Shown here piece by piece: positions 3 through 60,378 of a stretch of 64,000 bases of DNA. The stretch's first letter is position 1; each line of letters opens with the position of its first letter. Below the pieces are notes generated by a model, which was not told the DNA's origin, did not search any database, and worked only from the letters and a program-made list of their open reading frames with translations. The translations under genes were made by a program, and so were the position numbers. Origin of the DNA: Ornithinicoccus hortensis (GTDB lineage Bacteria; Actinomycetota; Actinomycetes; Actinomycetales; Dermatophilaceae); contig NZ_VFOP01000001.1 in the NCBI RefSeq assembly GCF_006716185.1, positions 124,001 to 188,000 on the forward strand. Reading direction: 5' to 3'.

Positions 3-1436
3 GCGGCCCTGGCGATCACCCACCGGATGGACCTGCTCGCCCTCGGGGACGACGCCGCGACCGTGCTCGGGGTGTCCGTACGCCGCACCCGGGTGGCCTC
101 GATCCTGGTCTCCGTGCTCCTCGCGGCGCTCGCCGTCACCATCGCCGGACCGATCGGCTTCGTCGGGCTGGCCGCCCCGTTGATCGCCCGGCTCGTGGCC
201 CGCCGCGTCCCCGGCCTCGGTCGGCACGCCCTGCTGCTGCCGTTCGCCGCGCTCGTCGGGATCGTCGTCGTCCTCGGCGCCGACGTCTTCCTGCGCGTGG
301 TCGTGCCCAGCGCCCAGACCACGGCGGTGCCCACCGGCGTGGTCACCAGCGTGATCGGCGCCGCCCTGCTCGTCTGGTTCGCCCGCCGGATGCCGGACAG
401 CGGCCCCGGCCTGGACAACGCCACCGGCCACCTCGGTCGCCCCCGCTCCACCACCACGTATGCCGCGGCGCTGGCCCTCCTCGTCCTCACCCTGGTCGGG
501 GCCGGGGTGGGGGCCGTCCTGCTCGGTGACCGGTTGATCCTGCTCGGGGACGTCGCCAACTGGCTGGGCGACGTCTCGGGCCGGGAGGTAACCCTTGAGA
601 TGGGGCGGCGCGTGCCGCGGGTCCTGGCGGCGCTGCTGGCGGGGGCCGCCCTGGCGCTGGCCGGCACCATCGTGCAGGCGGTCTGCCGGAACCCGCTGGC
701 CGAGCCCGGCCTGCTCGGGGTGACGTCCGGTGCGGGCTTCGGCGCGGTCGCCGCGATCCTGCTCGTGCCCGGCGTCGGACTCTGGCCGATGTCGGCCGCG
801 GCGGTCGCCGGCGCCATCGTGGTGACCGCCCTGGTCTTCGCCCTGGCGCATCGGCACGGGCTGAGCTCCACCCGGCTGGTCCTGATCGGGGTCGGGATGC
901 AGGCCGGGGTGATGGCGCTGATCAGCCTCCTCATCCTGGTCACCCGCCCCTGGGAGGTGAACCTGGCCCTCACCTGGCTGGCCGGGTCGACCTACGGGCG
1001 CAGCATGGAGCAGACCATCCCGGTCGCCGTGGTCCTGCTCGTGGTGATCCCGCTGGCCGTGCTGCTGCGGCGCGAGCTGGACATCGTGGCCCTGGACGAG
1101 GACACCCCCCGGATCCTCGGCATACCGCTCGACCGGGCCCGGCTGCTGCTGCTCGGTGCCGCGGCCCTGCTCACCGCCGGGGCCGTGGTCGCAACCGGGG
1201 TCGTGGCCTTCGTCGGTCTCGTCGCCCCGCACGCCGCCCGGGCCCTAGTCGGGGCACGGCACTCCAGGGTCATCCCGGTGGCCATCCTGCTCGGCGCGAT
1301 CCTCGTCTCCGGGGCCGACACCCTGGGCCGGTGGGCACTGGCCCCCGTCCAGGTCCCGGCCGGCGTGGGGACCGCCCTGCTGGGCACTCCGTACTTCATC
1401 TACCTGCTGTGGCGCAGCCGCGGCCGCGACACCTGA
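3..1436 (+). CDS. Fused FecCD-type siderophore ABC transporter permease (5' end outside window)
   Basis: Inner-membrane permease of a ferric-siderophore ABC importer. The frame is already open at the left edge, so the true start lies upstream. The visible part begins inside one FecCD domain (the [12 protein letters not shown] motif is near codon 50 of the visible frame). A polar linker around [12 protein letters not shown] follows, then a second full FecCD domain with its own hydrophobic segments and a [16 protein letters not shown] motif. This FhuB-like layout, two permease units in one chain, would form the whole membrane channel without a partner permease. A siderophore-interacting protein starts 16 nt downstream, supporting an iron-uptake operon; the binding protein and ATPase are presumably to the left. 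Substrate is not readable from sequence. Confidence 0.9.
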
Positions 1437-1452
1437 GCGAAAGGACACACCC

Positions 1453-59900: not shown

Positions 59901-60378
59901 GCCCGAGGGCGACCCGCTCATCCCGTATGCCGAGCTGCTGGAGACCCAGCCCCTGCTGGCCGACCAGGTGCTGCGGGGCTATCTCACCGGGTCGGTCGAC
60001 GTCGTGCTGCGGCTCGGCGAGCGCTACCTGGTGGTCGACTACAAGACCAACTGGCTGGGCACCGCCGACACCGAGCTGACGGCATACGACTATCGGCCGG
60101 AGGCGCTGGCCGCCGCGATGGGCCACTCCGACTACCCGCTCCAGGCGCTCCTGTATGCCGTGGTGCTGCACCGCTTCCTGCGCTGGCGGCAGCCCGGCTA
60201 CGACCCGGACCGGCACCTGGGCGGGGTGCTCTACCTCTACCTGCGCGGCATGTGCGGCCCGCAGACCCCGGTCGTCGACGGGCACCCGACCGGCGTCTTC
60301 TCCTGGCGGCCTCCGACCGCCCTGGTGCTCGCCCTGTCCGACCTGCTCGACGGGGCACCGGAGGAGGACGTCCGATGA
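56986..60378 (+). CDS. recB: Exodeoxyribonuclease V subunit beta
   Basis: A 1,130-residue UvrD-like 3'-5' helicase and nuclease. Walker A is LLEASAGTGKTWTIGALVTR with Lys38; motif II is VDEFQDTDPVQWQVF; motif III and later IGDPKQAIYAFRGGDVVTYL and GTNWRSD. The helicase end carries VTIHGSKGLQYPIVYLPYL and LLYVALTRAQSQV. The C-terminal RecB nuclease shows GSVDVVLRLGERYLVVDYKTNWLG with the catalytic D-x-K. It is coupled to recC and recD by 4-nt overlaps. Confidence 0.96.
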   Translation: MNPAVHPPGHGRAPEPFDIRDPLPTGTTLLEASAGTGKTWTIGALVTRFVAEGVATLEEMLVVTFGKAASQELRERVRAQLVEAEHALADPATAPSDNEVVTLLLACDPAEQALRRQRLRAALASFDGATIATIHQFCHQVLRSLGVAGDTDASARLVEDLDDLLVEVVDDIYLRGFARSERPEFSHAEALKIAREAAGSNPQARLEPADPEPGSVAARRVGFARAVRQELAARKRRLGVLSYDDLLSQLADALQREDAPARDRMRRRWKVVLVDEFQDTDPVQWQVFDRAFSGHATMVLIGDPKQAIYAFRGGDVVTYLEAARTAATAKTLGTNWRSDAALLERLQVVLHGAALGDPGIVVHDVRAAHPGSRLSGAPHPDPFRLRVARRDQFGNLKRGALPTVGPVRQHIARDVARDITGLLASGAEFDGRPLQPRDIAVLAHAGDRLTEVKEELRKLGVPAVVSGGGTVFQTPGATEWLTLLEGLEQPHRSARVRAAALTSFIGHSAEDLDQQGDALTDAVARRLRDWAELFDRRGVAAVMEAATIDGLPARVLRTADGERRLTDLRHTAQALHEAAVADHLGLVALLTWLRQQMAEDRPAGTNSRTRRLDSDAAAVQLVTIHGSKGLQYPIVYLPYLSERWLPPTIDIPMFHGSGPDRLRSIDVGGEGHPDFEGNTVRHREEEAGESLRLLYVALTRAQSQVVAWWAPNSNIRASALQRILLGRPAGVAEVPDVTQAPSDDDAAAAFAAWSAAGGPVIEPSVVAEPVEADLREETDRLGVRDFSRTVDTDWRRTSYSALSRALEQVDQRADAVGSEPEEPPREDEPPAELPVTDLPDPDALIPDPRLTVPSPMADLPVGATFGSLVHGVLEDADPAAPDFREELLDRIGDQLVRWPVPLDPAELADALEQVCDSPLGPLAGDATLRRIPLADRLPEMEFELPLAGGDVADYDAGTVQLGDVAVLLRRHLPEGDPLIPYAELLETQPLLADQVLRGYLTGSVDVVLRLGERYLVVDYKTNWLGTADTELTAYDYRPEALAAAMGHSDYPLQALLYAVVLHRFLRWRQPGYDPDRHLGGVLYLYLRGMCGPQTPVVDGHPTGVFSWRPPTALVLALSDLLDGAPEEDVR

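Follow-up and report, generated by a model that had tools for sequence, protein, structure and literature searches.

A short, dispersed DNA word of the Dermatophilaceae that may work like a DNA uptake sequence

The genome of Ornithinicoccus hortensis, a single contig of 3,935,242 bases, carries a short word about once per 2 kb, on both strands. We propose, at roughly even odds (about 50%), that this word, GTATGCCG(T/A)G, marks the cell's own DNA throughout the genome in the manner of a DNA uptake sequence (DUS) and has been spread by molecular drive linked to transformation. The word was noticed in a stretch of 64,000 nucleotides (positions 124001-188000 of the contig; hereafter the window), in which the 7-mer GTATGCC had been predicted to be strongly over-represented. 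We counted it as that 7-mer, as the 8-mer GTATGCCG, as the 10-mer GTATGCCGTG and as the extended consensus above. Genes were called with a simple in-house script, not a published gene finder.

Across the whole genome, GTATGCCGTG occurs 573 times (276 forward and 297 reverse) and the same 10-mer read backwards 18 times (12 and 6). A comparison of the whole-genome count with chance had been set in advance as a check, and the count lies far above expectation. The 8-mer GTATGCCG occurs 1,865 times (939 and 926); its backwards form, which partly overlaps the motif's own context, occurs 126 and 123 times. Among the 8-mers of a 464-kb sample (the window plus 20 even stretches), GTATGCCG ranks first (224 copies versus 14.5 under a third-order model). 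In the same sample GTATGCCGTG reaches 70 copies versus 0.7 in simulations, and past the 8-mer only two further positions are clearly informative, first T or A and then G. The over-representation of the 10-mer falls steeply with each mismatch, from 105-fold to 7.9-, 1.56- and 1.12-fold at zero, one, two and three mismatches (six simulations), compared with 2.0- (one copy), 1.27-, 1.08- and 1.05-fold for the backwards 10-mer. A falling gradient of this kind has been described for known uptake sequences (PMC1939737). The word was present in each of the 23 source-genome pieces examined, and its density was not significantly correlated with GC content (Spearman 0.30, p 0.16), so we rejected the idea that it is excluded from low-GC stretches.

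Within the window itself, a recount gave the predicted 46 copies of GTATGCC (27 plus, 19 minus), with starts from 458 to 60153, and 13 copies of GTATGCCGTG (8 plus, 5 minus). With a second-order Markov model fitted to the window, 3.0 and 0.06 copies, respectively, would be expected; the enrichment therefore stands, and the 5-6 chance copies of the 7-mer in the original prediction were a generous estimate. C follows GTATGC in 46 of 51 occurrences, in line with the claim that it nearly always does. By z-score, GTATGCC and TATGCCG tie for the highest among 7-mers and GTATGCCG leads the 8-mers. Forty of the 46 copies lie inside called genes, usually in the frames G.TAT.GCC (Tyr-Ala) or G.GCA.TAC (Ala-Tyr).

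Codon choice at these sites departs sharply from the rest of the genome. In 504 kb of the source genome, TAT encodes 324 of 2,909 tyrosines, compared with 108 of 122 at G.TAY.GCC.G sites, bearing out the prediction that the word imposes an otherwise avoided codon. Both copies said to force ATA, at 1119..1125 and 26515..26521 (minus strand, in genes), are indeed in the frame that does so. At xCG.GCN.TAC sites we found 60 GCA, 33 GCC and no GCG. Called genes contain GTATGCCG 201 times, whereas 60 synonymous-codon shuffles, a null that does not preserve codon pairs, gave 16.7 on average and never more than 28; synonymous codon choice thus does not account for the word. By the same shuffles the backwards 8-mer (19 versus 4.9) and the one-base variant GGATGCCG (96 versus 62) are moderately raised, and another near match, GTACGCCG, is depleted (19 versus 68). 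Per 100 kb, genes hold 45.9 copies of the word and intergenic DNA holds 66.3. The two reading-frame orientations are unequal (123 versus 78, p 0.002), and no bias towards gene ends was evident in quintile counts (no formal test). The genome count, the near-saturation of TAT, the shuffles and the mismatch gradient together give good support to the original prediction that selection or drive acts on the DNA rather than on the protein.

To assess how widely the word is shared, we sampled 186 genomes of the family and based tallies on the 163 that are at least 90% complete, leaving out 23 less complete ones. Counts of the 10-mer are bimodal: 88 genomes are rich (at least 90 copies), 75 are poor (at most 60) and none falls between. 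Of the 48 genera represented at this completeness, 22 contain only rich genomes, 24 only poor ones, and two are mixed. Each of the 31 genomes in the source genus matches the 10-mer, with 4 copies in G009, 55 in G014, 59 in G024 (74% complete) and 198-573 in the other 28. In a sample of the order, 15 of 25 family genomes hold 625-3,277 copies of the 8-mer and the other 10 at most 71, and 272 genomes from 18 other families hold at most 177 each; within this sample, abundance of the word is confined to a single family. A survey of named loci, 16 of 17 of which could be tied to a genome, placed Ornithinimicrobium (four genomes), Serinicoccus (five), Leekyejoonella and Flexivirga among the rich (617-1,758 8-mers) and Luteipulveratus (47), Kytococcus (11) and Mobilicoccus (35) among the poor. 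Two unplaced named genomes hold 939 copies (that of locus L085) and 341 (L109), the latter between the groups. We take all of these named genera to belong to the Dermatophilaceae as defined by GTDB. One genome, G071, has 19 10-mers and is filed as poor, yet has 1,142 8-mers. In its loci L188 and L189, all 16 copies of GTATGCCG seem to lie within a longer fixed string, TATGCCGCT (16 versus 0.1 expected), and are perhaps a dispersed repeat rather than a short word.

Individual sites turn over between species. In an alignment of the bkd operon from 15 sequences (variable at its far end; sites with a gap in the eight columns were skipped), the word occurs at 11 ungapped positions; ten of these are shared by no more than four genomes and one by ten. 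No word site was found in the poor genera Luteipulveratus, Kytococcus and Mobilicoccus in this alignment. The widely shared position corresponds to the plus-strand, in-gene source copy at 25839..25845; five sequences lack the word there, of which four have TTC (Phe), namely those of Luteipulveratus, Kytococcus, Mobilicoccus and O. tianjinense, and one has TAC. Most sites are thus not conserved in position from one species to the next, and such turnover at high density is more readily explained by a driven word than by control elements with site-specific roles.

Comparison with 600 kb pooled from motif-poor genomes shows which near matches changed alongside the word, which itself stands at 0.7 per 100 kb in the pool and 48.3 in the source genome. 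GTACGCCG, one transition away, goes from 26.5 per 100 kb in the pool to 4.1, and GCATGCCG, also at one mismatch, from 10.3 to 5.6. GTATGTCG, a possible decay product, rises from 0.8 to 8.0, and the remaining one-mismatch words are mostly up or level. We rejected an origin by mutation alone, with C changing to T in GTACGCCG, because GTACGCCG lost 22 per 100 kb, less than half of the 48 gained by the word.

Some relatives use a different form. The variant GGATGCCG, extended as GGATGCCG(TG), takes the place of the word in three genera, two of them poor and one mixed. Whole-genome counts of GGATGCCG are 3,949 in G178 (genus g51), 3,816 and 3,838 in genus g9 and 2,099-4,480 in four genomes of genus g15, compared with roughly 240-1,340 elsewhere, and 80 kb of G178 hold 75 copies versus 7.2 expected. 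Within g15, G064 has 246 copies of GGATGCCG versus 25.4 expected, 58 of them with the same TG extension (versus 1.3), and G066 carries both words (74 versus 4.5 and 120 versus 24.8). Because G064 uses GGATGCCG while G066 holds both, the same element appears, from these counts, to have changed by one base inside the genus. A further genome, G121, has a strong word of unrelated sequence, CGAAGGGG (80 versus 8.4), without strand bias (38 and 42 in four stretches). We considered and rejected CGAAGGGG as an FtsK-orienting polar sequence (KOPS), since it is not enriched in the source genome (16 versus 23.7) and the G121 copies are unbiased by strand. Words at 4-7 times expectation, which may be codon effects, are not claimed as dialects: GTACGCCG in G120 and G045, GTACGGCG in G114, CGATGCGG in G113, GGATGCCG in G153 and CGAAGGGG in G082. 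No word of comparable strength was found in 20-40 kb each of G009, G038, G126, G129 and G031. In 40 kb of G055 (loci L186 and L187), GTATGCGG (10 versus 0.9) and TGGCATGCC (10 versus 0.4) could represent a further dialect, and in 60 kb of G184 (L039, L040 and L064) overlapping 9-mers with 14-17 copies each fit a longer string, GTCGAGTAGGTGCGG.

The word has no polarity. With replichores inferred from GC skew, 115 copies of the 7-mer lie on the leading and 136 on the lagging strand in 21 pieces (p 0.21), and the 8-mer divides by skew sign into 119 and 137 in 24 pieces (p 0.29); GGATGCCG in G064 divides by strand into 130 and 116. The argument that mixed strand use speaks against polar elements therefore holds, and these even counts show no orientation towards the terminus of the kind expected for KOPS. 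Spacing is slightly more even than random, with 42 neighbours within 500 bp versus 54.8, a value as low as that in 1% of 400 randomisations.

How might such a word arise and spread? We suggest that these species are naturally transformable and that the word in outside DNA would be recognised at the cell surface by a receptor, possibly ComEA or a minor Tad/Flp pilus subunit; DNA so bound would then be imported through ComEC and recombined. Biased uptake of this kind, or molecular drive, would spread matching sequences without any local job for each site. A change in receptor specificity could then produce a changed word, and loss of the preference could lead to decay of the word, which would explain the poor genera. 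In the source genome comEA adjoins comEC (the ComEC_Rec2 model scores just under its cut-off and the ComEC N-terminal model over it), and the Tad locus includes TadA and a TadE-type minor pilin. Transformation of another actinobacterium, Micrococcus luteus, is reported to require ComEC and tad genes (PMC4322843).

Several observations weigh against this proposal. The main gap is that poor genomes share the machinery: among the 186 family genomes, rich and poor alike, 181 match ComEC and 184 match the TadA family. The machinery therefore does not predict the word, its specificity would have to vary, and we put an uptake function at about even odds for this reason; ComEC and TadA were set aside as determinants of the word because they are near-universal and uninformative. 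Hardly any genome has type IV pilus markers: MshEN scores over cut-off in 6 and PilM in 1 of 186 genomes, and neither does so in the source genome, which therefore offers no candidate for a ComP-type receptor. Many poor genera lack a strong replacement word in the 20-60 kb scanned. No extended conservation flanks the word in 464 kb, and inverted word pairs are not in excess, with 3 within 60 bp versus 3.65 at random in 524 kb; at this chance level, inverted-repeat terminators were also rejected as its role. Mismatch gradients are reported for other frequent words as well and so are not specific to uptake. Finally, Tyr-Ala dipeptides are only slightly raised in the source genome (1.10 versus 0.79-1.14 in 11 other family genomes), and Tyr-Ala enrichment of the proteome was set aside as slight.

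Three further observations concern the same machinery. Among genomes at least 90% complete, none of the 8 with a single TadA-family match is rich, compared with 88 of the 155 others. These eight poor genomes come from four genera, and two less complete genomes with a single match are rich (G131, 382 copies; G150, 186), which makes the link between a single TadA and poverty a weak lead. Weak PilM matches in 116 of 186 genomes were discarded; the one in the source genome is, by eye, mreB, adjoining mreC- and mreD-like genes. In the word-less G114, the ComEC alignment falls into two pieces near the C-terminal domain (locus L060, 7072-9425), and the gene is possibly broken; some rich genomes likewise show ComEC in two pieces.

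Of the candidates listed in the original prediction, an uptake-sequence-like word fits best, and a Chi signal for RecBCD is disfavoured by the family profile of RecC. A Chi-like signal more generally, at which a helicase-nuclease other than RecBCD would change mode and so protect the cell's own broken DNA, seems to us unlikely. AdnAB is presumably the candidate enzyme. The window does contain recBCD genes, and Chi sites are described as short over-represented words (PMC4390886). In our tally of 163 genomes, from which a below-cut-off match in G040 was removed, genomes with a RecC match comprise 39 rich and 41 poor and those without comprise 49 rich and 34 poor; outside the source genus the figures are 13 and 39 with a match and again 49 and 34 without. 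RecC is thus not positively associated with the word, 49 of the 88 rich genomes having no RecC match, which makes a RecBCD Chi unlikely. Chi sites usually show leading-strand bias, and the word has none. These results weaken a Chi-like role only as regards RecBCD and by the lack of polarity. The word could instead be bound by a nucleoid or chromosome-organising protein for which the number of sites matters and their exact positions do not. Its occurrence on both strands, its presence in all 23 pieces and its slightly more even spacing are as expected for such a site, but near-saturation of synonymous sites goes beyond what a density requirement would produce, and the word is rare in the poor genera and the other sampled families; we regard this role as quite unlikely.

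A little less credible still is a word that serves no purpose and is driven by methylation or repair, with a methyltransferase or biased mismatch repair converting near matches, a mechanism that has been proposed for alternate highly iterated palindrome (HIP) words in cyanobacteria. The fall in GTACGCCG relative to the pooled poor genera and the absence of GCG at xCG.GCN.TAC sites would fit such conversion, and HIP words are also reported to switch between lineages (PMC4390886). Set against this, the loss of GTACGCCG is less than half of the gain, and of the other one-mismatch words GCATGCCG falls and most rise or stay level. The GGATGCCG and CGAAGGGG words would need other changes, the TTC found in four of the five word-less sequences at the best conserved site is two changes away, and the word is not palindromic. 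We give hardly any credence to an artefact of composition or codon pairs, or to a polar KOPS-type element. The backwards 8-mer does exceed its synonymous shuffle, though in partly overlapping motif context; synonymous shuffles, Markov models to order 3, the backwards 10-mer and the poor relatives all miss the observed counts, and polarity is absent.

The uptake proposal can also be judged against known systems. Like the DUS of Neisseriaceae, the word occurs at about one copy per 2 kb, on both strands, family-wide and with a one-base dialect. It differs in its actinobacterial host, in having no excess of inverted pairs, which in Neisseria are reported to be in excess (PMC3630211), and in the lack of a type IV pilus marker in the source genome. 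The neisserial 12-mer ATGCCGTCTGAA (PMC2346458) shares ATGCCGT with the word, probably by chance. The uptake signal sequences (USS) of Pasteurellaceae are likewise described as having a core of 8-10 bp, different variants within a family and one orientation that is commoner in reading frames (PMC2346458), but here there is no extended flanking consensus or evident gene-end bias, and the sequences are unrelated. Cyanobacterial HIP1 is similarly a very frequent octamer that is replaced in some lineages (PMC4390886); HIP words, however, are palindromes tied to methyltransferases, and GTATGCCG is not its own reverse complement. Chi resembles the word in being short and over-represented, but the word has no strand bias and is abundant in genomes without a RecC match. 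With DUS and USS the word thus shares its copy number, its use of both strands without polarity, its sharing within a family with dialects, its mismatch gradient and the presence of competence genes in the same genome; an excess of inverted pairs at gene ends, which is typical of those systems without defining them, was not found in 524 kb, and type IV pilus markers of the receptor-bearing kind scored over cut-off in few of the 186 genomes and not in the source genome. We class it as working like a DUS and not as a proven one.

Neisseriaceae and Pasteurellaceae are described as the only groups known to take up DNA selectively by sequence (PMC12616744), and among the matches listed in the open-access literature we recognised no self-DNA uptake signal from an actinobacterium. 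The word may be the first such signal in a Gram-positive group, family-wide, with evolving dialects and a Tad-pilus or ComEA receptor, and arisen apart from the neisserial and pasteurellacean systems; we hold this fuller claim tentatively, at slightly short of even odds. If true, it would be a third independent case, implying that uptake signals evolve repeatedly, even without an outer membrane, and one genus would have been caught with two dialects. Natural transformation would be predicted in the 22 genera in which every well-sampled genome is rich, and placing the word on a DNA fragment would offer an easy handle for transforming them.

The remaining copies in the window are distributed as follows. 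Plus-strand copies of GTATGCC in called genes lie at 458..464, 10323..10329, 11852..11858, 18903..18909, 20568..20574, 24593..24599, 28956..28962, 29668..29674, 30455..30461, 41025..41031, 45316..45322, 46452..46458, 48646..48652 and, antisense to the gene, 51838..51844; minus-strand copies in genes lie at 1971..1977, 4462..4468, 14502..14508, 18462..18468, 22101..22107, 24017..24023, 34572..34578, 47086..47092 and 51679..51685. Outside called genes are a minus-strand copy at 10025..10031 and a plus-strand copy at 53504..53510, just before recC as called. Copies extended to GTATGCCGTG occur within genes at 42861..42870 and 42915..42924 (plus), 5693..5702 (plus, antisense to the gene) and 29581..29590, 33116..33125 and 39583..39592 (minus), and outside called genes at 5175..5184 (plus) and 41715..41724 (minus). 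A decarboxylase-like gene at 15276-16538, with family matches below cut-offs, contains a GTATGCCGTG copy at 15491..15500 and a GTATGCC copy at 16076..16082, both on the plus strand.

The recC-recB-recD operon (53591-62243), in which all three genes score over family cut-offs, carries six copies: in recC at 54040..54049 (GTATGCCGTG, plus), 54192..54198 (minus) and 56707..56713 (plus), and in recB at 59925..59931 (plus), 60081..60087 (minus) and 60153..60162 (GTATGCCGTG, plus). Between two convergent genes, an inverted pair of GTATGCCGTG copies has its left arm at 22906..22915 (minus) and its right arm at 22926..22935 (plus); a hairpin of -40.1 kcal/mol is predicted for this pair within 22895-22950, with a 16-pair stem that includes one G-U pair, and could be a terminator. 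Elsewhere, locus L003 has a 13-kb stretch without the word (6917-20000), in which open reading frames at 9243-10091, 13291-14139 and 14295-15599 start near-identically. The stretch also holds genes that by eye look recombinase-like, its tail has 55-59% GC, and it is perhaps recently acquired DNA.

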